64,000 bases of DNA. It comes from Cetobacterium somerae ATCC BAA-474. Lineage in GTDB: Bacteria > Fusobacteriota > Fusobacteriia > Fusobacteriales > Fusobacteriaceae. Numbering within the stretch: position 1 is the stretch's first letter; the number at the start of each line of letters is the position of its first letter. Both the position numbers and the translations under genes were made by a program. The stretch lies in contig NZ_KI518170.1 of NCBI RefSeq assembly GCF_000479045.1, forward strand, positions 1-64,000, written 5' to 3'. Below, one piece after another: positions 14,637-56,307 of this stretch. The notes under the pieces are model-generated. The model was not told where the DNA came from. It was given only the letters and a program-made list of their open reading frames with translations, and searched no databases.

Positions 14637-14671
14637 ATATGGTAATTAAGATAATAGAAGGGGTTGATACC

Positions 14672-15037
14672 ATGATTATAGCTTATGAAAAATTAACTAA
14701 CTCTTACAGAAATATTGTTAAGGAAAATCTATTCCATATTGGAGAGGGACTTATTCTAGATAGAGAGAATAATGTTTTACATAGATTTGAAAATATCAAC
14801 GATATTACCTTAGATACTTTAAAAACACTTAATAAGCTTAAAGAGGAGATTGTTATAGTATATCCTTGCAATTTAAGAGATAGAAAAACAACTTTAGATG
14901 TCTGTGTAGAATCTTATGTAATTAGACATTATAACTTAGAAACTATATTTGATGCGATTCATGGCTGCCAGTGCACAAAGAGAAACATCAAGCTTTTATG
15001 GAATGTAGATTTAAGACATTGTAATGTTTTCTTTTAA
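14672..15037 (+). CDS. Conserved-looking small protein of unknown function, Cys-containing C-terminus
   Basis: A 121-residue soluble protein I do not recognise. An in-frame ATG at 14639 lies inside or before the predicted transcription start. The ATG at 14672, preceded by GAAGGGG at 8-nt spacing, is therefore the better start. The C-terminal half has CNLRDR, DVCVES, a CQC pair in IHGCQCTKR, and LRHCNVFF. Five cysteines in this stretch suggest metal or redox chemistry but no known motif. It is monocistronic, bracketed by its own promoter and a palindromic terminator. It lies just upstream of the FNT channel gene. Confidence 0.7.
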   Translation: MIIAYEKLTNSYRNIVKENLFHIGEGLILDRENNVLHRFENINDITLDTLKTLNKLKEEIVIVYPCNLRDRKTTLDVCVESYVIRHYNLETIFDAIHGCQCTKRNIKLLWNVDLRHCNVFF

Positions 15038-15091: not shown

Positions 15092-15127
15092 AGCATAGTG
15101 TGATTTAAATCACACTATGTTTTTTTA
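15092..15127 (+). promoter_or_regulatory. Perfect palindrome: Crp/Fnr-type operator, also terminator-like
   Basis: Bases 15092-15121 form a near-perfect 30-bp palindrome whose core is TGTGA (15099-15103), TTTAAA, TCACA (15110-15114). This is the consensus E. coli CRP half-site arrangement. Its centre (15106.5) is 40.5 bp upstream of the start predicted from TATAAA at 15135-15140, the class II activator position. A T-run follows at 15120-15127, so the same DNA can also end transcription of the upstream small gene. Confidence 0.75.
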
Positions 15128-15173
15128 TTTTTAATATAAAATGCTAGTATATCATTTAATTGAGGAGGAATAT

Positions 15174-15950
15174 ATGTTTTTTGAGGCAGTTGAAAAAGTT
15201 GCAAATGCAGGGGTTAGCAAATCTAATTTTTTAAAAAATAGTTTTGGAAAATACTTTGTCTTATCAACTTTTGCTGGATTTTTTGTTGGATTAGGAATTT
15301 TATTAATTTTCTCTATTGGTGGATTAGCAGCACCAGTTATTGGACCTTTAGGTGCTAGAACACTTATGGGAGCTTGCTTTGGAGTAGCACTGAGTTTAGT
15401 TATTATGTGTGGTAGTGAACTTTTTACTGGAAATAACTTTGTTATGACAATATCTACACTATCTAAAAAAACAACTTGGGCTGATACTATTAAACTTTGG
15501 GTTGTATGTTATTTCGGAAACTTAGCTGGATCTATTTTATGTGGATATTTATTCTCTCTAACAAATTTAACTGTTCACTTTGTTCCTGGAGCTGAAAGTG
15601 TTGGTAAATTTATGGGAACTATAGCTACATTAAAAGCTACAGCACCTTTCTGGGATCTATTTTATAGAGGAATACTTTGTAATATACTTGTTTGTTTAGC
15701 TGTTTGGTGTTCTATAAAAATGACATCTGAGTCAGGTAAATTAATCATGATTTGGTGGTGTCTATTTGCCTTTATAACTGTTGGTTTAGAGCATAGTATT
15801 GCAAACATGACTCTTTTCTCAGCACTAATGTTTAAAGAACCACAATTTTTTATGGGAATGATTGTTAACTTAATTCCAGTAACTTTAGGAAACATAGTTG
15901 GAGGAGTTGGATTAGGAGCAGCATATTATTACGTATCTAAAAAAGATTAA
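15174..15950 (+). CDS. Formate/nitrite/hydrosulfide channel (FNT family)
   Basis: A 258-residue pentameric inner-membrane channel subunit. The first in-frame ATG (15141) overlaps the promoter region. The start at 15174 follows TTGAGGAGGAAT and gives MFFEAVEKVANAG, a normal FNT N-terminus. Six membrane helices are evident. SELFTGNNFVMT matches FNT signature 1, and GLEHSIANM carries the conserved pore histidine. Family members carry formate (FocA), nitrite (NirC) or hydrosulfide (HSC, linked to asrABC in Clostridioides difficile). A TGTGA/TCACA operator shared with asrABC, 5 kb away, makes sulfide export a reasonable hypothesis. Formate export in a fermenter is the main alternative. Confidence 0.9.
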   Translation: MFFEAVEKVANAGVSKSNFLKNSFGKYFVLSTFAGFFVGLGILLIFSIGGLAAPVIGPLGARTLMGACFGVALSLVIMCGSELFTGNNFVMTISTLSKKTTWADTIKLWVVCYFGNLAGSILCGYLFSLTNLTVHFVPGAESVGKFMGTIATLKATAPFWDLFYRGILCNILVCLAVWCSIKMTSESGKLIMIWWCLFAFITVGLEHSIANMTLFSALMFKEPQFFMGMIVNLIPVTLGNIVGGVGLGAAYYYVSKKD

Positions 15951-15965
15951 TTTTAAAAGATTAAT

Positions 15966-16012
15966 AAAAGGTATCTATTTTGTCAAAAATAAAATAGATA
16001 CCTTTTTTATTT
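15966..16012. terminator. Rho-independent terminator after FNT gene
   Basis: AAAAGGTATCTATTTT (15966-15981) pairs perfectly with AAAATAGATACCTTTT (15991-16006). A T-run follows on the + strand. Confidence 0.9.
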
Positions 16013-16063
16013 TTAATGATATAATATAATAATATTGTAATAAATAAAATCCCAGGAGGATGT

Positions 16064-17890
16064 ATGAATAAATTCCTAGCAAAAGAAAATTTAATTCTAA
16101 AAAAATACTTTGGATATGATGAGTTTAGAAAAGGACAACATGACATCATTAAAAATATTTTACAAAGAAAAGATACTCTAGCTATTATGCCAACAGGTGG
16201 TGGAAAATCTATATGTTTTCAAATACCAGCCTTAATTTTTGAGGGAGTTACTGTTGTTATATCTCCTTTAATATCACTTATGAAAGATCAAGTTGATGCT
16301 TTAAATGAAAATGGTATCCCTTCTGTATTTATAAATAGTAGTCTTTCAAATTCACAATGTGAGATTATTTATAATGCTCTTCTTTTTAATAAATACAAAA
16401 TAATTTATATTGCACCTGAGAGACTTGAAAATTCAAGATTTTTATCAGTTATAAAAAATATTAATGTATCACAAATTGCTGTTGACGAAGCACACTGTAT
16501 ATCTCAATGGGGACATGACTTTAGAGTTAGCTATAAAAACATTAAAAATTTTATTCAATCTTTAAATAGTAATCCAGTAATATCTGCTTTCACTGCCACT
16601 GCTACTCCTGAAGTTACTGAAGATATTTTAGAAAGTTTAAATATTAAAGCAACTATATTTAAAAATGGATTTAAGAGGGATAATCTAAAGTTTTCTGTTT
16701 TCAAAAATGTAGATAATTTTAAATTTATACAAAAATTTATTGAAGAACATCCTGAAGAAAGTGGAATAATATATACTTCTACAAGAAAAGAGTGTGAACA
16801 AATTTATGAATTTCTTTCTAAAGGAAAGAGTATTGCTAAATATCATGCTGGCCTTTCTGATAATGAGAGAATGAGTAATCAAGAGGATTTTCTTTTAGAT
16901 AGATGTAAAATAATTGTCGCAACTAATGCCTTTGGAATGGGTATTGATAAATCCAATGTAAGATGGGTTATTCATAATAATCTACCAAAAGATATTGAAA
17001 GTTATTATCAAGAAGCTGGTAGAGCCGGTAGAGATGGGCTTATTTCAAGTTGTATTCTACTTTATAATCCCAAAGATATTATTATTCAAAAACTATTTAT
17101 TGAAAATGAAAACTTATCTCCAGAAATAGCTAAAATTAGATATAGTAAACTTTCTGCTATGGAAAATTATACTAGAACTAATGGCTGTCTTATTGAATAC
17201 ATTGTAAACTATTTTGAAAATAAACCTTTGGCTGAAAATTGTGGAATGTGTGGAAATTGTGAAAATAAAGGTGAACTTATTGATATAACTATTGACGCTC
17301 AAAAAATTATTTCATGTGTTGGAAGATTGAATAATAAATATGGTGCAAAATTAATTTTAGATATTCTAAAAGGTTCTAACAATGCAAGAATTAGAGACAA
17401 TCGTTTAAATGAACAATCTACATATGGATGCTTAAAAGATAAATCCTCTACCTATATTAAAACAATTATGGATTACCTTATAGGAAGTGATTTTATCGAA
17501 AGTACTGAGGGAAAATACCCACTTTTAAAATTAAAAGAAAGTGCTTATATTTTTATAAAATCTAAAGAAACCTTATCTATGAGGGTTTTAAACAATGATG
17601 ACGATTCTATTACGAAAAAAGAAAGACCTAATGATAAAAAAACTTCATTACCTCTTATTCCTGGTGGAGAGCAGTTATTTAATCTTCTATCAGAATACAG
17701 AAGTAAAACCGCTCATAACAACCATGTTCCATCTTATATAATTTTTTCTGATAAAACTATAATTGATATTTGCAATTATAAACCTAGAGAAAAAGATGAA
17801 CTTTTAAAAATAAATGGTATTGGAGAAGCTAAATTTGAAAAATATGGCAACGATATCCTTTCTATTGTAAATAACTATATAAAAAAATAA
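16064..17890 (+). CDS. recQ: RecQ-type ATP-dependent DNA helicase
   Basis: A 608-residue 3'-5' helicase of the RecF repair pathway. In order it shows YFGYDEFRKGQ (Q/motif 0 region), Walker A MPTGGGKSICFQ, VDEAHCISQWGHDFR (DEAH plus aromatic-rich loop), FTATATPEV, and QEAGRAGRDG (motif VI). The zinc cysteines lie in NGCLIEYI and CGMCGNCENKG. The RQC winged helix occupies about 410-510. A C-terminal HRDC domain (about 535-608) contains NGIGEAKFEKYG. Length is typical. AGGAGG precedes the ATG. It is a single gene between terminators. Confidence 0.95.
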   Translation: MNKFLAKENLILKKYFGYDEFRKGQHDIIKNILQRKDTLAIMPTGGGKSICFQIPALIFEGVTVVISPLISLMKDQVDALNENGIPSVFINSSLSNSQCEIIYNALLFNKYKIIYIAPERLENSRFLSVIKNINVSQIAVDEAHCISQWGHDFRVSYKNIKNFIQSLNSNPVISAFTATATPEVTEDILESLNIKATIFKNGFKRDNLKFSVFKNVDNFKFIQKFIEEHPEESGIIYTSTRKECEQIYEFLSKGKSIAKYHAGLSDNERMSNQEDFLLDRCKIIVATNAFGMGIDKSNVRWVIHNNLPKDIESYYQEAGRAGRDGLISSCILLYNPKDIIIQKLFIENENLSPEIAKIRYSKLSAMENYTRTNGCLIEYIVNYFENKPLAENCGMCGNCENKGELIDITIDAQKIISCVGRLNNKYGAKLILDILKGSNNARIRDNRLNEQSTYGCLKDKSSTYIKTIMDYLIGSDFIESTEGKYPLLKLKESAYIFIKSKETLSMRVLNNDDDSITKKERPNDKKTSLPLIPGGEQLFNLLSEYRSKTAHNNHVPSYIIFSDKTIIDICNYKPREKDELLKINGIGEAKFEKYGNDILSIVNNYIKK

Positions 17891-17907
17891 ATTTTCAAAC
17901 AGTATAT

Positions 17908-17945
17908 AAAGAGATAACTCTATTACATAATAAAGTTATCTCTTT
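17908..17945. terminator. Bidirectional terminator
   Basis: AAAGAGATAACT (17908-17919) pairs with AGTTATCTCTTT (17934-17945) between convergent recQ and the phosphoesterase gene. Confidence 0.85.
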
Positions 17946-17953
17946 AATTAGCT

Positions 17954-19024
17954 TTATTTAAAGATCATTATCTGACTACTACTTCCAATTCTGTATGGAA
18001 TCATCCAAGTTCCCAATCCTGAACTTACATATGTATGTGTCTCTCCTATCTTCCTATATCCACCTGAGTTTTCATACATATAATCTACCACTAAATTAAA
18101 AGGGAATAGTTGGCCTTTGTGTGTATGACCTGATAAGTACAAATCCACTTTTTCATTTCCTAACTCTTTTAAAGATTGAGGATTATGATCAACAACTATA
18201 ACAGAACTTTTTTTATCGACATTTTTTAAAAGTTCATCTAATGATTTTCTCTTTTTATTATATCTGTCATCTCTTCCTACAATTGTTATTCCTTCAATCT
18301 CCACTATCTCATCTCTTAAAATATTTATTCCAAGATTTTTTATATATTCAATATTTCCCTCTATTCCACCATAGTATTCATGATTTCCTAAAACTAAATA
18401 AATTCCATGTTTAAAGTTTGTTTCATCAATTATACTTTTAATATCATCTGTTACACTCTTATATGAATTATCTAAAAAATCTCCACCTATAAGAACTAAC
18501 TCAACATCTTCATTTTTCATTTTTTCAAAAGCTGTTTTTAATTTACTCCCATCAAATTTCCCATTTAAATGAACATCACTTATAAAAACAAATTTTAAGT
18601 TTTTTTCATTTCTAATTATCTCTTTTGGTGTTTCATAATTTTCTACAGAAATATTTTTAAAATTTTTATATCCTAAAATCGACAGAATACCTAAACTAAA
18701 AATTATAAAAATATGAAAACTCGTCTTTCTATAACTAACTTCTTTTAAAATATCAATTGAAAACATCTTAAAAATAAGGGCAATTGATAAAAGAATTAAA
18801 GCTCCAAATACTATATAATTAAGATAAAATAGATAATGCCCTAAAAAAACTTCTAAAGATACGCTTCTTTTATTTCGATAAAAATAAAAGAGAACAAAAG
18901 GTAAAAAAGTAAAAATTGGTATAAATAGAAAATACCATAAGCTTCCATATATTTTATAAAAAATATATGCTACTCCTAATATTGGAAGTATTAATAGTAG
19001 CAATCTCTGTAAAATCCAAATCAT
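17954..19024 (-). CDS. Membrane-anchored calcineurin-like metallophosphoesterase
   Basis: A 356-residue protein. Residues 1-125 hold four hydrophobic segments, followed by a phosphoesterase domain with all dinuclear-metal motifs: FISDVHLNG, GGDFLDN, GNHEYYGG, VDHNP and SGHTHKGQLFPFN. The layout matches the YkuE/YaeI group, which hydrolyses phospholipid headgroups such as UDP-diacylglucosamine in some members. The substrate here is unknown. An AGGGAAG-type SD is adjacent to the ATG. It is monocistronic, with a candidate operator palindrome upstream. Confidence 0.88.
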   Translation of the reverse strand: MIWILQRLLLLILPILGVAYIFYKIYGSLWYFLFIPIFTFLPFVLFYFYRNKRSVSLEVFLGHYLFYLNYIVFGALILLSIALIFKMFSIDILKEVSYRKTSFHIFIIFSLGILSILGYKNFKNISVENYETPKEIIRNEKNLKFVFISDVHLNGKFDGSKLKTAFEKMKNEDVELVLIGGDFLDNSYKSVTDDIKSIIDETNFKHGIYLVLGNHEYYGGIEGNIEYIKNLGINILRDEIVEIEGITIVGRDDRYNKKRKSLDELLKNVDKKSSVIVVDHNPQSLKELGNEKVDLYLSGHTHKGQLFPFNLVVDYMYENSGGYRKIGETHTYVSSGLGTWMIPYRIGSSSQIMIFK

Positions 19025-19073
19025 CTTCCCTCCATTTTAGTGAATTAATTTTTAAATTGTAAAATATTATACC

Positions 19074-19093
19074 ACTTAGAGTAAACTCTAAGT
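19074..19093. repeat. Inverted repeat upstream of the phosphoesterase gene
   Basis: ACTTAGAGT (19074-19082) and ACTCTAAGT (19085-19093) form a perfect 9-bp inverted repeat with a 2-bp centre, 50 bp before the phosphoesterase start. It has no T-run of its own, so an operator is more likely than a terminator. Confidence 0.45.
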
Positions 19094-19097
19094 CAAT

Positions 19098-19136
19098 AAA
19101 AAAACTGTAGCTTGATTTTACTCACTCTACAGTTTT
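19098..19136 (-). terminator. Terminator of the asr operon
   Basis: On the minus strand AAAACTGTAG (19136-19127) pairs with CTACAGTTTT (19110-19101), followed by a T-run. It lies 12 bp after the asrC stop. Confidence 0.85.
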
Positions 19137-19147
19137 AGTTAGTTTAA

Positions 19148-20140
19148 TTATTTACCAATATCATTTTCAGCACCAGAGTAGATAATTCCATTCCAGTTAA
19201 CCATATTTCTTTCAATTGCCACTTCTTCTAAGTTAACACCTTCTAATGCAAACTTTTTAAACTCATTGAATCCTGTTCTATCAACAATATATCCAATATG
19301 TTCTTTTGGAAGTGCTCTGTTAATATACGTATCTACATATCTATATGTATTTTTAATAATTTTTATTATACTTTCTTCATCAGCCCATAAAATCCAATCT
19401 TCAGCAAGTCTTGGATTTTTCTTTCCTGTTCTACCCATAATAGCAAGTCTGTAGTACTTTTTCTCATCTCTAACCCAAGATGATGTCGGACAGTTTAAAA
19501 CACACTCTCCACACCCTATACATTTACTATGTTCTCTTACAACTGTATAATTTTCTGCTCTTAAAGCACCTGTTGATAATCCTTTACATTTTTTTACACA
19601 TGCTCCACATGAAACACATCTCTCTTTTTCGTATAAAGGCATAGTCATTCCAATTATACCAAAGTCATGCATTCTTGCTTTGATACAATCATTTGGACAT
19701 CCTGTTAAAGCAATTTTAAAATGGAAATCATTAGGGAAAACTTCTTTCTCTATTTTTTTAGCAAAGTTTGTTGTATTATATTGAGCCTTAGGACAAACAC
19801 TGTTTCCAATACAAGCTGTTATATTTCTTGTTCCAGCTGCTGGATATCCATTTCCCTCTCCATTTGGTTGATTAATATCAAAACCATCAATTAAAACTTG
19901 AATCTCTTTATTTACTTCATCAATTTTTGTAATATCAATACCTTTAATTTCAAATCCTTGACGAGTTGTTATATGAACTTTTCCATTTCCATATTTTGAA
20001 GCTATTTCAGAAACTTTTAAAAGTAGTTCTGCTGTTATCTCTCCACCAGGAACTCTAACTCTTAAAGCTGTTTTTTTTCTATCTTTTGTTATTCTATACG
20101 CATTTTTTGTAAAACTTTTTCTACTTAACTCTAAAGCCAT
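19148..20140 (-). CDS. asrC: Anaerobic sulfite reductase subunit C (sirohaem catalytic subunit)
   Basis: A 330-residue subunit carrying out six-electron reduction of sulfite to sulfide. The sirohaem/[4Fe-4S] ligands are Cys110, Cys116 (C-x5-C) and Cys148, Cys152 (C-x3-C). Two ferredoxin clusters sit in CVSCGACVKKCKG and CIGCGECVLNCPTS (about 185-230). VRVPGGEITAE at the N-terminus is characteristic. AGGAGG precedes the ATG, 9 bp after asrB. It is the last gene of the operon. Confidence 0.96.
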   Translation of the reverse strand: MALELSRKSFTKNAYRITKDRKKTALRVRVPGGEITAELLLKVSEIASKYGNGKVHITTRQGFEIKGIDITKIDEVNKEIQVLIDGFDINQPNGEGNGYPAAGTRNITACIGNSVCPKAQYNTTNFAKKIEKEVFPNDFHFKIALTGCPNDCIKARMHDFGIIGMTMPLYEKERCVSCGACVKKCKGLSTGALRAENYTVVREHSKCIGCGECVLNCPTSSWVRDEKKYYRLAIMGRTGKKNPRLAEDWILWADEESIIKIIKNTYRYVDTYINRALPKEHIGYIVDRTGFNEFKKFALEGVNLEEVAIERNMVNWNGIIYSGAENDIGK

Positions 20141-20149
20141 GGTCTCCTC

Positions 20150-20944
20150 CTAATCTAAAAGCGTTTTAGCTTTTACATAATTAAATATAGGTCCTTCTAA
20201 ACAAACATATGTTTCATCAATTTTACAATGTCCACACTTTCCTACAGCACAAGACATATTTCTTTCAAAAGAAACCCAAATTTTGTCCTCTGGAATTCCT
20301 AACTTTAAAAACTCTAATGCAGAGTATTTCATCATCATAGGAGGTCCTACTATAACAACTTCTAAATTATCAAAATTTTCATACATTTTTAGATGAGGAA
20401 TATACTCAGTTACAAGTCCTACACACTCTCCATCAATTCCACAACCTTTATCCACAGTTAAAATCATTGGAGCTTTTTTTCTCCACTCATCTATCTCTTT
20501 TTTAAATAGAATAGATTCTTGATCTTTAAATCCAAAAATTAGCTCAATATCTGTATTCTCATCATCTATAAAATGTTTTATTAGTGGTCTTACTGGAGCA
20601 GTTCCACTTCCACCAGCAACTACAATTACTCTTTTTCCAGAGTATGTATCCATAGGGAAACAATTTCCATAAGCTCCTCTTAAAAATATTGAATCTCCTG
20701 GTTGAAGATTAAATATTGCATCAGTAACTTTTCCAACTTTTCTTATTAGAAACTCAATCCATTCTTCGTCATGATTATAATTAGCAACAGATATTGGTGC
20801 CTCTCCTACCATATGAATAGATAGTTGTATAAATTGTCCTGGAGCTGGTTTTATAGTTGTTTTAACTTTAAATAACCACTCAATTGGACTCTCTTGAACT
20901 ATTGATAAAATTTCTCCTCTTTCAGGCATATATATATTACTCAT
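20150..20944 (-). CDS. asrB: Anaerobic sulfite reductase subunit B (FAD/NAD-binding)
   Basis: A 264-residue ferredoxin-reductase-like subunit that passes electrons from NADH through FAD and a [2Fe-2S] cluster towards AsrC. Motifs are GQFIQLSIHMVGEAPIS (flavin), VVAGGSGTAPVRPL (pyridine-nucleotide binding), and a C-terminal cluster motif with cysteines in CAVGKCGHC and YVCLEGP. An upstream in-frame GTG at 20953 is possible. The ATG at 20944, preceded by AGGTGAT, matches the usual start. It overlaps asrA by 8 bp. Confidence 0.95.
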   Translation of the reverse strand: MSNIYMPERGEILSIVQESPIEWLFKVKTTIKPAPGQFIQLSIHMVGEAPISVANYNHDEEWIEFLIRKVGKVTDAIFNLQPGDSIFLRGAYGNCFPMDTYSGKRVIVVAGGSGTAPVRPLIKHFIDDENTDIELIFGFKDQESILFKKEIDEWRKKAPMILTVDKGCGIDGECVGLVTEYIPHLKMYENFDNLEVVIVGPPMMMKYSALEFLKLGIPEDKIWVSFERNMSCAVGKCGHCKIDETYVCLEGPIFNYVKAKTLLD

Positions 20945-21944
20945 TATTATCACCTAACTTTTTCGATAGTTTATTTATACAGTTTATATAAGAGATGTAC
21001 TCAGGACAAGCATCATCACATCTTCCACATCCAATACACATATGTGTTCCAAATCTTTTTTTATAGTCAGAGATTTTATGCATAACTTTAAATCTCATTC
21101 TATCTCCAGATTTTTGTCTAAATTCATGTCCACCAGCCATAGTTGAAAATCCATCTACATGGCAAGAAGCCCAAACTCTTCTTCTCTCTCCAGTTTTAGA
21201 GTTATCTCTATTAAAGATATCTTGAGTTGTAAAACAAGTACAAGTAGGACAAACAAAATTACATCTTCCACACTTAATACATCTATCGTAATCTCTCCAC
21301 ATCTCATCATTTATAATATCTTCTAACTTTATATTTTCAGGAACTGTAACTTTTTCAACATTTTCTGTTACAAACTCCATTTGAAACTCTTCTTCTTTCC
21401 CATCATTAAAGAACTCGTTTAACTCTTCATCTTTTATATGAGTATAAACTGCACCATCTTTAAATGTAAGACCTAAGTTATAATTCTCTGTTGTATTTGT
21501 TCCCATTGAAGCGCAGAAGCAGCTCTCCCATCCTTTTCCTGGGCAGCCAATAACTGCAAATTTAACCATTTTTTTTGCATCTGCATAATATTCATCTGCA
21601 AATTTGTTATTTAAATATATATTATCTACTCTTTCAATAGCATGAAGGTCGCAACTTCTTAGTAAAACTAAAGCTTTTTTTGTTCTTCCCTCTGGTTTTT
21701 TAAACTCATTTTCATTAAAGTAAAATATTGTTTGTCTTATAGGTAGTAGAATCTCTTTAGCTGAATAGTAACTTTTATCTTTTAGATTGATCTCTTCTAA
21801 TTTAGTTATCTTCTCATATTTAACTAAATCAGTATCAGAGAACGTTCCTTTAAAAGGAAGTGTAACTGGAGCATAGATATCATACTCTTTTGATAAACTT
21901 AATAATGCTCTATTAAATTCATCATTTGTTAATAATTTTTTCAT
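20937..21944 (-). CDS. asrA: Anaerobic sulfite reductase subunit A (ferredoxin-like)
   Basis: A 335-residue iron-sulfur subunit and first gene of asrABC. It shows two ferredoxin-type cysteine clusters, CIKCGRCNFVCPTCTCF near residue 220 and CIGCGRCDDACP near 305. The N-terminal region, with LRSCDLHAIERVD, is typical of the AsrA/HydB beta-subunit family. It probably relays electrons to AsrB and AsrC. GAGGTGAAGAG precedes the ATG. A TGTGA/TCACA palindrome upstream is suited to activation by a Crp/Fnr-type regulator. Confidence 0.94.
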   Translation of the reverse strand: MKKLLTNDEFNRALLSLSKEYDIYAPVTLPFKGTFSDTDLVKYEKITKLEEINLKDKSYYSAKEILLPIRQTIFYFNENEFKKPEGRTKKALVLLRSCDLHAIERVDNIYLNNKFADEYYADAKKMVKFAVIGCPGKGWESCFCASMGTNTTENYNLGLTFKDGAVYTHIKDEELNEFFNDGKEEEFQMEFVTENVEKVTVPENIKLEDIINDEMWRDYDRCIKCGRCNFVCPTCTCFTTQDIFNRDNSKTGERRRVWASCHVDGFSTMAGGHEFRQKSGDRMRFKVMHKISDYKKRFGTHMCIGCGRCDDACPEYISYINCINKLSKKLGDNNE

Positions 21945-21984
21945 CTCTTCACCTCTTATACAACTGTTTTTATACTAGTATCTC

Positions 21985-22033
21985 ATTCTATTACTTTATA
22001 TAGAAAAAAATGTGTGACTCTAGTCACACATTT
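21985..22033 (-). promoter_or_regulatory. Crp/Fnr-type operator and -10 element for asrABC
   Basis: TGTGA (22013-22017), six bases, TCACA (22024-22028) lies within a 12-bp-arm palindrome (22008-22019 with 22022-22033). On the minus strand a TAGAAT -10 element at 21990-21985 predicts a start near 21978. That places the palindrome centre at about -42, the class II activator position. On the minus strand a T-run follows the palindrome, so it may also terminate the upstream DUF1456 gene. Confidence 0.75.
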
Positions 22034-22080
22034 CTATATTGACAAAAAATAAATTTTTTTAAGATCAATTTGTAATCTTA

Positions 22081-22557
22081 TTATTTTTCCCCTCTGAAAA
22101 GTTCAGTGATTCCCTTAATAAATACTCTAACATATTTATCTCCAGCTTCTCTGTAATTTTTATGGTCTGGTCTTCTGAAGATTGCACTTAATTCTGATTC
22201 AGACATATTAATTCCACCTGTCTTAAATGCATCTATCATATCTTCACTTCTAAAAGCTAAAGCAATCTTTAACTTTCTTAGGATGTAGTTATTTATATTT
22301 TTATTATTTGGTACTTCCTCTGTTTTTTCTGGAGCATTTTTTTGTGGTCCTCTTTTATAAGTTATAAGTCCACTTAAAAATACATCTAAAGTTTTATTAT
22401 TACAAGTTTTAAAGTTTTCATCTTCAGGCTTACTTAAAAGAGCTGTTAACTCTTCTAAAGAGATATTCATTCCTCCTAATTTGAAAACTTCCATCATAGC
22501 TTTATCATTTATTCTTAAAGCATATCTAACTCTTCTTAGAACGTCATTATTTGTCAT
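22081..22557 (-). CDS. DUF1456 (YehS-like) protein
   Basis: A 158-residue protein made of two copies of the DUF1456 domain. MTNNDVLRRVRYALRIND begins the first and NYILRKLKIALAFRSED the second (from about residue 91). Each is followed by an acidic helix ending in a PDHKNYREAGDK-like loop. E. coli YehS has the same two-repeat design and no established function. AGGAGG precedes the ATG. The gene lies between crp and asrA on the same strand, separated from asrA by the operator/terminator palindrome. Confidence 0.88.
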   Translation of the reverse strand: MTNNDVLRRVRYALRINDKAMMEVFKLGGMNISLEELTALLSKPEDENFKTCNNKTLDVFLSGLITYKRGPQKNAPEKTEEVPNNKNINNYILRKLKIALAFRSEDMIDAFKTGGINMSESELSAIFRRPDHKNYREAGDKYVRVFIKGITELFRGEK

Positions 22558-22629
22558 TTGTTCCTCCTAATTTTTTTAAATTTTACTCATAATTATACCA
22601 CAAATATAGGAGTATTCCTATTTTTTATT

Positions 22630-23295
22630 TTAACGTCTATAAAAATCTCTAATTTCTGTTTTTAAAATAAAGATTTGTCCATTCTCAACTTTAACAAGAC
22701 CTAGCTCTTTAAGTTTTTTTATACCTCTTGAAACAGTTTCTCTATTAGTTCCTAACATATCTGCCAAATAGGTGTTATTTACTTTTACTGTAAAACCATG
22801 AAATTCCTTGTATTCATATCCAAAATCTTTTGCTAATTTCCATAGTTTTGCAGCAATTCTTTTATCCATAGATATAGTTGTTGTATTTTTTAATTGTCGA
22901 TATAAACGTTTTGTCTTTTTTGAAAGAGATTTTATCATTAAGATAGCTAAATCTGGATATTTTAAAATTAATCTTTTAAGCTCTTTTATTGGAATAATCA
23001 TCACTTTAACATCAGTAAAAGCATCACAACTAACACTTGTTTTTTGTGATTCATCATATACCATAGTATCATTTAAAAATGAATCTTTTCCCAGCAAATA
23101 GATTATTTTTCTTTTTCCATCTGAATTATCTTTATATACTGTAACATTTCCACTAATTATGAAATATATACTCTCACAAAATGAGTGCTCTAAAAAAAGA
23201 GTTTCTCCCTGCTTAAACTCTTGGCATTGAGAAACTCTTAATAAATTATCTAAGCACTCCTTTGAAAGGGAACTACTTAAGTAATCTTGATTCAT
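22630..23295 (-). CDS. Crp/Fnr-family transcription regulator predicted to bind TGTGA sites
   Basis: A 221-residue regulator. Residues 1-130 form a cyclic-nucleotide-binding-type beta barrel, without an obvious cAMP pocket motif and without an FNR-type N-terminal Cys cluster (Cys15, 24, 40, 90 only). It continues with a dimer helix and a winged helix (145-215). The recognition helix NRETVSRGI has Arg185, Glu186 and Arg190, equivalent to E. coli CRP Arg180, Glu181 and Arg185, which read TGTGA. Two TGTGA-N6-TCACA palindromes lie near asrA and the FNT gene. The start is 2 bp after deoC's stop with no clear SD, suggesting coupled translation. Confidence 0.9.
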   Translation of the reverse strand: MNQDYLSSSLSKECLDNLLRVSQCQEFKQGETLFLEHSFCESIYFIISGNVTVYKDNSDGKRKIIYLLGKDSFLNDTMVYDESQKTSVSCDAFTDVKVMIIPIKELKRLILKYPDLAILMIKSLSKKTKRLYRQLKNTTTISMDKRIAAKLWKLAKDFGYEYKEFHGFTVKVNNTYLADMLGTNRETVSRGIKKLKELGLVKVENGQIFILKTEIRDFYRR

Positions 23296-25420: not shown

Positions 25421-26029
25421 ATGAAAAAAATAGAACAATACATAAACTTTTATAATTTAGACGATATTTTAATTAAAGAAGTTCATGAAAAATTATTAAT
25501 AAAACATTATAAAAAAGGAGAGTATATTTTAGAAGCTCATAAAGGAACTAATAGCATCTATTTTATAGTAGAAGGAACTGTTGAGGTTTCTTGTATTCTT
25601 GATAATGGAAATCAAATATGTTTAAATATACTTAGACCTTTAGAAATCTTTGGAGATATTGAATACATTAATAAAGAGGAAGTATTATTTGATGTAGTTG
25701 CTAAAAGTGATGTGGCAGTTATTCTTCTACCTTTTCAATTAGCAAAAGACTATCTTGAAGATAATATTAACTTTTGGAGATTTTTAGCTATTGAAGGGAA
25801 CAAAAAACTTTTAAATACAAATAGAGCTATATTTTATAAAAGTACTTTAAAAGCAAAAGATATTTTTATAAAATATCTTGAAGATAATGGAGGAGAAATA
25901 ACTTTTAAATCTCTAGATGAACTTTCTGGTAGACTTAATATAAGCTATAGAAACCTAACTAGAATAATTAAATTTTATATTAATAAAGGTACCATAGTTA
26001 AGGATAGAAATTTTATTAAAATTTTATAG
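25421..26029 (+). CDS. Crp/Fnr-family regulator, divergent type
   Basis: A 202-residue protein with an N-terminal cyclic-nucleotide-binding-like barrel (about 15-120; IYFIVEGTVEVS) and a C-terminal winged helix (about 150-200). Its recognition helix (ISYRNLTRIIKF) lacks the R-E-x3-R of CRP, so it should read a different site. Its general look is that of the YeiL-like branch. AAGGAG precedes the ATG, and TATAAT at 25383-25388 is a likely -10. The iron-dependent dehydrogenase gene begins 12 bp downstream and is a probable target or partner. Confidence 0.85.
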   Translation: MKKIEQYINFYNLDDILIKEVHEKLLIKHYKKGEYILEAHKGTNSIYFIVEGTVEVSCILDNGNQICLNILRPLEIFGDIEYINKEEVLFDVVAKSDVAVILLPFQLAKDYLEDNINFWRFLAIEGNKKLLNTNRAIFYKSTLKAKDIFIKYLEDNGGEITFKSLDELSGRLNISYRNLTRIIKFYINKGTIVKDRNFIKIL

Positions 26030-32219: not shown

Positions 32220-33197
32220 ATGGTTATTTTAAATGTTACAAATCTATCCATAGAGGAGATTTCAAAAATTAATAGAGTTGTTGTTGATGAAATATCTTTC
32301 TCTTTAAAAAAGGGTGAAGTTCTAGGAATAGTTGGTGAAAGTGGAAGTGGTAAAACTGTTACAGCAATGAGTCTTTTAAATTTATTATCAGATGATTTAA
32401 AAATTTCAAAAGGAACCATTAATTTTTTAGGTACTGATATTTGTAAAGCTTCTGAAAAAGAACTTGAAAAAATTAGAGGTAATAGTTTTTCTATTATATT
32501 TCAAAATCCAATTAGTTCATTAAATCCTCTAATGAAAGTTGGAAAACAAATCTTAGAAGTAATTGAAAAACATCAAAATTTAGATAAAAAACAGATGTTA
32601 AATAGAACTTTTGAAGTTCTATCTGATGTTGGTTTTAAAGATAATTTTATGGAGATATATAATAAATATCCACATGAACTTAGTGGAGGACAGGGTCAAA
32701 GAATCGGTATTGCAATGGCAATTGCCAATAATCCCAAAATTATTATTGCAGATGAACCAACAACAGCACTTGATAAAAATACTCAAGCACAAATTTTAAA
32801 TCTTTTAAAAGAGATTCAAAATAAATATCAAACTTCTATAATTCTAATATCTCATGATTTAGAGATTATTAAGAATTTTACTGACAATGCTTTAATTATG
32901 TATTTTGGACAAATTGTAGAAAGTGGTAGTACCTATGACATCTTTCTTAATCCTAATCATCACTATACTAAAGGACTTCTGGATTCTCTTCCTGAAAATT
33001 TTAAAAAAGGAGAGTCTATTAAAGTGATGAAAGGAGGAATCCCAAATATAAATGACAATATCGAAGGATGCTTTTTTTCTCCTAGATGTCCTGCTGCTAT
33101 AGAGAATTGTAAAAAAAATAGAATTATGTATAATTTTGATAAAAAAAATCATAAAGGAATTCGATGTATCAATCCTTTAAAGGAAAAGAATCTATGA
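32220..33197 (+). CDS. ABC transporter ATPase, DppD/OppD type
   Basis: A 325-residue ATPase with Walker A GESGSGKTVT, ABC signature LSGGQGQR, Walker B IIIADEPTTALD and the switch in LISHD. The C-terminal oligopeptide-transporter domain holds the expected cysteines (GCFFSPRCPAAIENCKK, then IRCIN), which bind a [4Fe-4S] cluster in characterised DppD proteins. Its stop overlaps the start of the partner ATPase (ATGA at 33194). Confidence 0.93.
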   Translation: MVILNVTNLSIEEISKINRVVVDEISFSLKKGEVLGIVGESGSGKTVTAMSLLNLLSDDLKISKGTINFLGTDICKASEKELEKIRGNSFSIIFQNPISSLNPLMKVGKQILEVIEKHQNLDKKQMLNRTFEVLSDVGFKDNFMEIYNKYPHELSGGQGQRIGIAMAIANNPKIIIADEPTTALDKNTQAQILNLLKEIQNKYQTSIILISHDLEIIKNFTDNALIMYFGQIVESGSTYDIFLNPNHHYTKGLLDSLPENFKKGESIKVMKGGIPNINDNIEGCFFSPRCPAAIENCKKNRIMYNFDKKNHKGIRCINPLKEKNL

Positions 33198-55371: not shown

Positions 55372-55557
55372 CTATTTTTTATTTAATTTTTCTAAAACTT
55401 CATTTATATTCAATCCATGAATCTCACATGCCTGTTCTAAAGTTTCCATTTGTGCTGACGGGCATCCTATACATCCCATCCCATATCCCATTAAAATTTC
55501 TACTGCCATTGGATTTATTTCAATAATATCTGCTATTATAGTATCCTTAGTTATCAT
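55372..55557 (-). CDS. DUF1858 small redox-disulfide protein
   Basis: A 61-residue protein matching the hybrid-cluster-protein-associated disulfide domain (DUF1858). It reads DTIIADIIEINPMAVEIL, then GMGCIGCPSAQMETLEQACEIHGLN, with a redox pair Cys29-x2-Cys32. Such domains occur alone or fused to Hcp and sulfurtransferase-type proteins. Function is probably thiol or persulfide transfer. It overlaps the sirohaem-protein gene by 11 bp. Confidence 0.92.
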   Translation of the reverse strand: MITKDTIIADIIEINPMAVEILMGYGMGCIGCPSAQMETLEQACEIHGLNINEVLEKLNKK

Positions 55558-56236
55558 TTTTTTCCTCCTTTAATTTTTTTTCTTTTATAATATCACTTCT
55601 AAACTTATCTATTGTTATTCTATCTATAAAATGACCTAACTTTTCTCCCATTTGAGCATTTTCATTATAATACTCCAATACAGTTTTTACTAAAAGGTAC
55701 GCTTCATTTTCAGAAAGATTTTTAATTAAAATATCTGCATTTCTAGGATTAAAACCTGCACTTCCACCAACTGTAATAAAAAGTTTCCCATCCATATCTA
55801 CAATAACACCAATATCTTTAGAATAAGCACTTGTACATGCGTTTCTACATCCAACTACTGCTATTTTAGTTCTACATGGAAGTTCCATTCCATGAAAATC
55901 ATTACTAATTTTCATACCTAAACCTATTGTAGGATATTTTGATCTTTTGCAAAAATTTGCAGGACAAATTTCTACATTTTTTACAGAATTTTGGGTTTTT
56001 ACAGCTGGTTCCATTTCTAACTCGTTCCAAACACTAGCTAAGTCTTCTTCTTTCAAATTTGTTATTAAAATTCTTTGTCCCGATGTAATTTTTAAAACAC
56101 CTTTATATTTTTTAGCAACTTCTGCTATTTTTATTAGTGTATTTGGTGTTACAAATCCTCCTGGAATATGGGGTGTTATTCCATATGTTTTTTTACCATT
56201 CTTAATCTTTTGTAAATTTCCTCCAAAATTTCCCAC
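55547..56236 (-). CDS. Small sirohaem/4Fe-4S nitrite-sulfite reductase-like protein
   Basis: A 229-residue single-repeat reductase domain. TPHIPGGFVTPNTLIKIAEVA and ITSGQRILI are typical of the N-terminal half. Cluster ligands are Cys91 and Cys96 (C-x4-C, one residue tighter than AsrC) and Cys130 and Cys134 (C-x3-C). It has no ferredoxin domains, unlike AsrC, so electrons must come from a partner. The longer frame from 56299 starts inside an operator palindrome. GTG at 56236, preceded by AAAGGAGAGG, is the realistic start. Substrate could be nitrite, sulfite or another oxyanion, and a non-catalytic role is possible. Confidence 0.87.
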   Translation of the reverse strand: MGNFGGNLQKIKNGKKTYGITPHIPGGFVTPNTLIKIAEVAKKYKGVLKITSGQRILITNLKEEDLASVWNELEMEPAVKTQNSVKNVEICPANFCKRSKYPTIGLGMKISNDFHGMELPCRTKIAVVGCRNACTSAYSKDIGVIVDMDGKLFITVGGSAGFNPRNADILIKNLSENEAYLLVKTVLEYYNENAQMGEKLGHFIDRITIDKFRSDIIKEKKLKEEKNDN

Positions 56237-56264
56237 AATATCCTCTCCTTTCTCTTTTGAATAT

Positions 56265-56307
56265 ATAATATATCTTTTTAGACAATTTTTCTGTAACATA
56301 AGTTACA
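56265..56307 (-). promoter_or_regulatory. TGTAAC-N4-GTTACA operator and -10 element for the sirohaem/DUF1858 operon
   Basis: TGTAAC (56292-56297), ATAA, GTTACA (56302-56307) is a perfect palindrome. On the minus strand TATTAT (56270-56265) predicts a start near 56258, placing the palindrome centre at -41.5. The symmetry fits a Crp/Fnr-superfamily activator of the HcpR or similar type, by recall of GTAAC/GTTAC-like motifs. Confidence 0.65.

Follow-up and report, generated by a model that had tools for sequence, protein, structure and literature searches.

The class II promoters of E. coli CRP share with the locus described here the half-site, the N6 spacer, the position at -41.5, the residues R180/E181/R185 and the overall fold of the regulator. 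The HcpR and HcpR2 regulons (Rodionov 2005, PMC1274295) also consist of Crp/Fnr regulators acting on nitrogen-oxide genes in anaerobes, and the consensus reported for Desulfovibrio HcpR, wTGTGAnnnnnnTCACAw, is the same as the operator found here (PMC1274295). In C. ljungdahlii, a regulator, asrABC and narABC lie together (PMC4222884, PMC5640608, PMC9124969), and the available text of these reports indicates that the nitrate and nitrite reductase genes are up-regulated more than 400-fold on nitrate (PMC4222884), that asr is strongly nitrate-induced and was proposed there as the nitrite reductase (PMC5640608), and that nitrate is no longer reduced once the nar cluster is deleted (PMC9124969); no description of the regulator or its operator was found in that text. 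AsrABC of A. acetoxydans is also induced during nitrate reduction, and asr mutants of Salmonella, in which NrfA is also present, lose sulfite reduction and keep nitrite reduction (PMC10949509). In addition, the hydrosulfide channel HSC of C. difficile represents FNT channels that adjoin or are co-regulated with asrABC (PMC5525234), and DNA uptake sequences located in terminators (PMC1852404) provide a case of a motif with another function serving as terminator stem. The HSC–asr linkage, the nitrate induction of nar and asr, and HcpR-type regulons are known; the regulator studied here, its operator and the fusion of operator and terminator were not found described in the openly accessible papers searched.

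The locus departs from each of these systems. Unlike in E. coli CRP, the cAMP contacts are replaced, the regulon comprises three operons rather than being global, the operator is often embedded in a terminator, and the flanking G/C is fixed in Cetobacterium. In contrast to HcpR and HcpR2, hcp is not a target and carries a separate GTAAC-type site, and the regulator has Glu at position 181, where HcpR2 proteins have Pro or another residue. Compared with the C. ljungdahlii cluster, as far as its available text describes it, the Cetobacterium operons are scattered, carry one common operator and include an FNT channel; unlike the C. difficile HSC, this channel stands in one regulon with a nitrate reductase, and unlike the uptake sequences, the motif in the terminator is a transcription-factor operator in a class II promoter. 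The best explanation overall, with a probability of roughly 0.7, is that a Crp/Fnr activator independent of cAMP recognizes an 18-mer and exerts class II control of narABC, fnt and asrABC for the conversion of nitrate to ammonium.

Operators and promoters at three operons

The window is the whole stretch of DNA that was analysed, namely 64,000 nucleotides of the gut-type anaerobe Cetobacterium somerae ATCC BAA-474. Its relevant features, together with the third site on another contig, are as follows.

14639-15037, plus strand: open reading frame of 132 aa without family match; across Cetobacterium it is conserved ahead of the FNT gene
15098-15115, no strand assigned: operator 1, the 18-mer GTGTGATTTAAATCACAC, upstream of the FNT gene
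15135-15142, plus strand: predicted -10 element of the FNT promoter, TATAAA (15135-15140) or TAAAAT (15137-15142), with the site centre at about -40.5 to -42.5
15174-15950, plus strand: FNT-family anion channel, closest structure C. difficile FNT 3TDO/3TDP (216 bits), then NirC (151 bits)
19148-20140, minus strand: asrC, siroheme/4Fe-4S catalytic subunit, TIGR02912 above cut-off
20150-20953, minus strand: asrB, TIGR02911 above cut-off
20937-21944, minus strand: asrA, TIGR02910 above cut-off
21985-21990, minus strand: predicted -10 element of the asrABC promoter, TAGAAT, 22 nt after the operator, with the site centre at about -42.5
22012-22029, no strand assigned: operator 2, the 18-mer GTGTGACTAGAGTCACAC on the minus strand, upstream of asrA
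22081-22557, minus strand: DUF1456 gene between the regulator gene and asrA, likewise in nine Cetobacterium genomes
22630-23295, minus strand: Crp-family regulator with R185/E186/R190 kept, cAMP-binding residues replaced and Cys90 conserved in homologs
G000:C159:38876: third 18-mer, between rbsB and a narABC-type operon

The three profile matches identify the asr products as the subunits of an AsrABC anaerobic sulfite reductase. A second, divergent asrABC copy, which has no operator and adjoins a PF03601 membrane protein, is present at G000:C28 (L130:5565-8495) and may be devoted to sulfur. For the FNT gene, the ATG at 15141 given by the ORF finder was rejected, as this codon falls within the -10 region, and the corrected start is the ATG at 15174 with the ribosome-binding site gaggagg.

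The sequence-only reading had pointed to two perfect TGTGA-N6-TCACA palindromes, and both were recovered exactly, at 15099-15114 and 22013-22028, against a mean of 0.02 perfect 16-mers per window in dinucleotide shuffles, none of which (0/100) contained two. When up to two mismatches were allowed, the window was not enriched (21 matches, 24.9 expected), so the signal is confined to perfect sites. A pattern search across the Cetobacterium genome returned four perfect 16-mers and one match to the reversed-pattern control. With the flanking G/C included (GTGTGA-N6-TCACAC), the genome has three perfect copies. Copies with a single mismatch are lacking, and the 20 with two mismatches do not exceed background (control total 22), so the sites form a discrete set. 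The three perfect 18-mers lie at FNT, at asrABC and at the narABC-type operon, so that the genome scan for the motif which had been called for added a third operon to the two already named. The fourth perfect 16-mer (G000:C133:18625-18640, L163), which has ridA on one side and a PTS EIIC gene on the other, is without the flanking G/C and is common only to the two closest genomes, G008 and G010.

Both sites had been placed 40–43 bp upstream of predicted transcription starts, and the -10 elements listed above agree with that placement. Among 50 non-redundant YGTGA-N6-TCACR sites from Clostridia and Fusobacteriota, including the window's two, an xAxxxT hexamer stands exactly 21 nt downstream in 42, and the mean match to TATAAT at this offset is 4.2/6, compared with 1.3–3.2 at other offsets. 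With a -10 hexamer at offset 21, the site is centred at -41.5, the position of class II activators; in Cetobacterium, the distance from operator to -10 element is mostly 22 nt. From these predicted -10 elements, the promoters have the layout of class II Crp-dependent promoters, in which a regulator dimer would bind GTGTGA-N6-TCACAC centred about 41.5–42.5 bp upstream of the transcription start and activate the three operons.

The operon at the third 18-mer encodes a molybdopterin oxidoreductase, a 4Fe-4S ferredoxin and an FAD/NAD oxidoreductase, which are 58, 71 and 52% identical to products of genes that adjoin asrABC in C. ljungdahlii (L046). In its catalytic motif, RLCMATSVV, the metal-ligand Cys is followed by Met, an arrangement also seen in NapA (RHCMASAVV). 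On the basis of this CM active site, a formate dehydrogenase, which has Cys or Sec followed by His (CH/UH), was rejected. The motif, the subunits and the homology to C. ljungdahlii place the enzyme with the narABC-type soluble nitrate reductases; since its scores fall short of the NCBIfam cut-offs for NasA/NasC as well as for Fdh, nitrate is its presumed substrate.

A Crp-family regulator predicted to be independent of cAMP

The protein at 22630-23295 matches PF00027 (cNMP-binding fold) and PF13545 (Crp-type HTH) above cut-off, which places it in the Crp/Fnr superfamily, and its AlphaFold model (pLDDT 90.5) matches CRP structures; a fold search with this model returned generic CRP-type structures only and gave no pointer to the effector. 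Arg185, Glu186 and Arg190, previously proposed as equivalents of the residues by which CRP reads TGTGA, are indeed paired by alignment with CRP R180, E181 and R185. In about 70 homologs of the regulator, R180 and E181 are invariant and position 185 is R or K, and these residues together with the TGTGA-N6-TCACA sites point to a DNA specificity of the CRP type. At the cAMP contacts of CRP (G71, E72, R82, S83, T127, S128), the window regulator has N71, D72, T82, S83, L127 and Y128; none of the same homologs retains G71, R82 or T127, and S128 is almost always replaced as well. It scores 89 against a cut-off of 266 for the NCBIfam CRP equivalog, and, judged by these residues, a regulator without the cAMP pocket does not count as a CRP as the term is used for E. 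coli. Invariant in 49 non-redundant homologs are N71, R126, Q130, N133, K146, R180, E181 and S184, and a Cys at CRP position 86 (Cys90 of the window protein) is kept in 43 of these 49. No four-Cys [4Fe-4S] motif is conserved across the homologs, which sets them apart from FNR, and no 18-mer lies at hcp, the core target by which HcpR would be recognized. The nature of the target genes makes a nitrogen oxide, e.g., nitrite or NO, the most likely effector. The window also encodes a second Crp-family protein (25421-26029, plus strand), which is YeiL-like, with a cNMP-binding domain and no Pfam HTH match.

The nine Cetobacterium genomes that carry the 18-mer have 25 copies of it, every one at asrA (9), fnt (9) or narA (7), and a control pattern had no match in the same genomes; in the narABC copy of G007, no such operator was found. 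Three further genomes have neither the 18-mer nor a close regulator ortholog: G012 has a narA homolog, which, like the G007 copy, counts against the three-operon model, and in G011 a 50% homolog of the regulator and a partial asrA are divergently arranged with a 9/10 site between them. Beyond the genus, 80 asrA loci were surveyed in Clostridia and Fusobacteriota, mostly Clostridia, and a homologous Crp-family gene is present in 60 of them, usually directly ahead of the asr operon; FNT genes occur in 39 and nar genes in about 21. With start codons estimated from tblastn ends, a perfect site was detected upstream of asrA in 27/75 and upstream of fnt in 11/38 cases. The frequency in random windows was 0.7%, and 0/57 of the regions preceding the regulator gene had such a site. 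The regulator and its operator tag thus appear to be conserved across two phyla.

A different Crp/Fnr protein encoded in the genome, such as HcpR, FNR or a true CRP, might alternatively recognize the sites. The genome does contain further Crp-family genes, and the Desulfovibrio HcpR motif is the same palindrome; against this, it is the neighbouring regulator that accompanies the site in two phyla and has retained R180/E181/R185, its close orthologs are found in all nine genomes with the 18-mer and are absent from the other three, and one hcp gene bears a GTAAC-N4-GTTAC site of HcpR2 type. Another reader is therefore very improbable, and the protein at 22630-23295 is favoured as the activator. 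The hcp gene in question is located at G000:C61 (L197, L199), with GTAACATATGTTAC at 32467-32480, about 80 bp upstream, as expected from the HcpR2 regulon that a 2005 study predicted for Fusobacterium (PMC1274295).

The shared Crp-type regulon of asrABC and FNT, as put forward by the sequence-only reading, is thus supported by the invariant site core in nine genomes, the lack of other 18-mer copies, the joint presence of regulator and site in two phyla, the -41.5 spacing and the recognition residues, from which we infer both binding and activation. Two additions alter its meaning, namely the narABC operon as a third member and the fusion of the operators to intrinsic terminators.

Operators within predicted terminator stems

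Each of the two operators lies within the stem of a terminator-like hairpin at the end of the preceding gene.

15092-15121, plus strand: predicted intrinsic terminator of the open reading frame at 14639-15037, a 13-bp hairpin and T-run with operator 1 within the stem
22006-22035, minus strand: predicted intrinsic terminator of the DUF1456 gene, a 13-bp hairpin and T-run with operator 2 within the stem

The two hairpins have predicted folding energies of -16.4 and -17.9 kcal/mol (z of -6.9 and -5.4), are the strongest terminator-like sites of the region and, with a GC-containing stem and a T-run at a gene end, have the make-up of intrinsic terminators. Among 20 distinct sites from Cetobacterium, covariation is seen in the outer arm pairs, with 34 double changes against 12.9 ± 3.4 after shuffling (reached in 0/500 shuffles), and the six inner pairs G-TGTGA/TCACA-C are unchanged. 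Outside Cetobacterium, arms of at least four pairs flank 54% of sites, compared with 8.8% when flanks are shuffled between sites; T-run length did not differ there between long-arm and other sites (p=0.32), which leaves the fusion of operator and terminator firmest within Cetobacterium. In several Clostridia (e.g., L013, L017, L018, L021), the core occurs without an extended hairpin or T-run, and in L126 a separate terminator is followed by an operator without extended arms; in both situations, the -10 element is still about 21 nt away. The operator can thus stand alone, and the terminator fusion is an added feature.

The strength of these hairpins and the covariation of their arms would also suit palindromes that serve solely as intrinsic terminators of the upstream genes, their match to the CRP consensus being incidental. 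The fixed TGTGA/TCACA and flanking G/C amid varying outer arms speak against this, as does the restriction to asr, fnt and nar, which is not expected of terminators, and the -10 spacing and the hairpin-free sites already contradict it; we give it hardly any weight. Instead, one palindrome seems to act in two roles, as protein-binding DNA and as an RNA terminator hairpin, so that in Cetobacterium each operator would double as the stem of the preceding gene's terminator. This sharing is a point that the earlier reading overlooked.

Nitrite or sulfite as the substrate of AsrABC

The scattered operons of Cetobacterium are joined elsewhere, as regulator-asrABC-narABC (L132), divergent asr/nar (L122), nar-fnt-asr (L125) and regulator-fnt-asr (L126 to L129). 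The regulon would likely serve the cytoplasmic conversion of nitrate via nitrite to ammonium: NarABC would produce nitrite, the FNT channel would be the membrane passage for nitrite (or HS-), and AsrABC, a siroheme enzyme, would reduce nitrite, possibly sulfite too, using NADH. Because asrABC is predicted to be co-regulated with a nitrate reductase, AsrABC is favoured as a nitrite reductase, which suggests that it completes the path from nitrate to ammonia; as the FNT gene shares the same regulon, nitrite may be an alternative cargo of the channel. A second candidate nitrite reductase is encoded in the window at 55547-56242 (minus strand, 231 aa, PF03460+PF01077), a small siroheme reductase whose domain make-up resembles the nirA-like DEACI_1836 of A. 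acetoxydans and which has a perfect HcpR2-type site, GTAACATAAGTTAC, at 56293-56306, about 50 bp upstream.

The same regulator and sites could instead serve sulfite detoxification or respiration, with AsrABC reducing sulfite, FNT exporting hydrosulfide and narABC being accessory or acting on another substrate. The window FNT resembles the hydrosulfide channel of C. difficile more closely than it does NirC, which counts against the nitrate-to-ammonium reading; moreover, HSC-type channels are known to be linked with asrABC (PMC5525234), and the Salmonella asr is a sulfite reductase. nar and fnt also tend to exclude each other (5 loci with both, 18 with nar only, 40 with fnt only; Fisher p=0.0016), and this exclusion and the excess of fnt-linked loci make a sulfite or sulfide role possible where nar is absent. 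On the other hand, the nar operon carries the identical operator, the nar–asr linkage recurs, asr is nitrate-induced in A. acetoxydans and, by the available text, in C. ljungdahlii, and the second asrABC copy of the genome is without the site. A sulfite role is therefore rather unlikely, with some weight left to it, and nitrite is preferred as the substrate. A single nitrate-specific AsrABC clade is not supported, as the 'nar only' label needs eight changes on a quick Asr tree.

Taken jointly, these observations would describe a dedicated, cAMP-independent, CRP-like regulator of Clostridia and Fusobacteriota governing a nitrate-to-ammonium pathway with AsrABC as the nitrite reductase, whose class II operators were repeatedly fused with terminators so that one palindrome both insulates and activates a promoter; for this combination in full, we regard the odds as about even. 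A candidate regulator and operator can now be named for the asr, nar and fnt genes of many anaerobes, and the proposal that AsrABC is a physiological nitrite reductase becomes directly testable. In addition, the locus would show how an activator site can share one palindrome with a terminator, the two constraints being separable by covariation.
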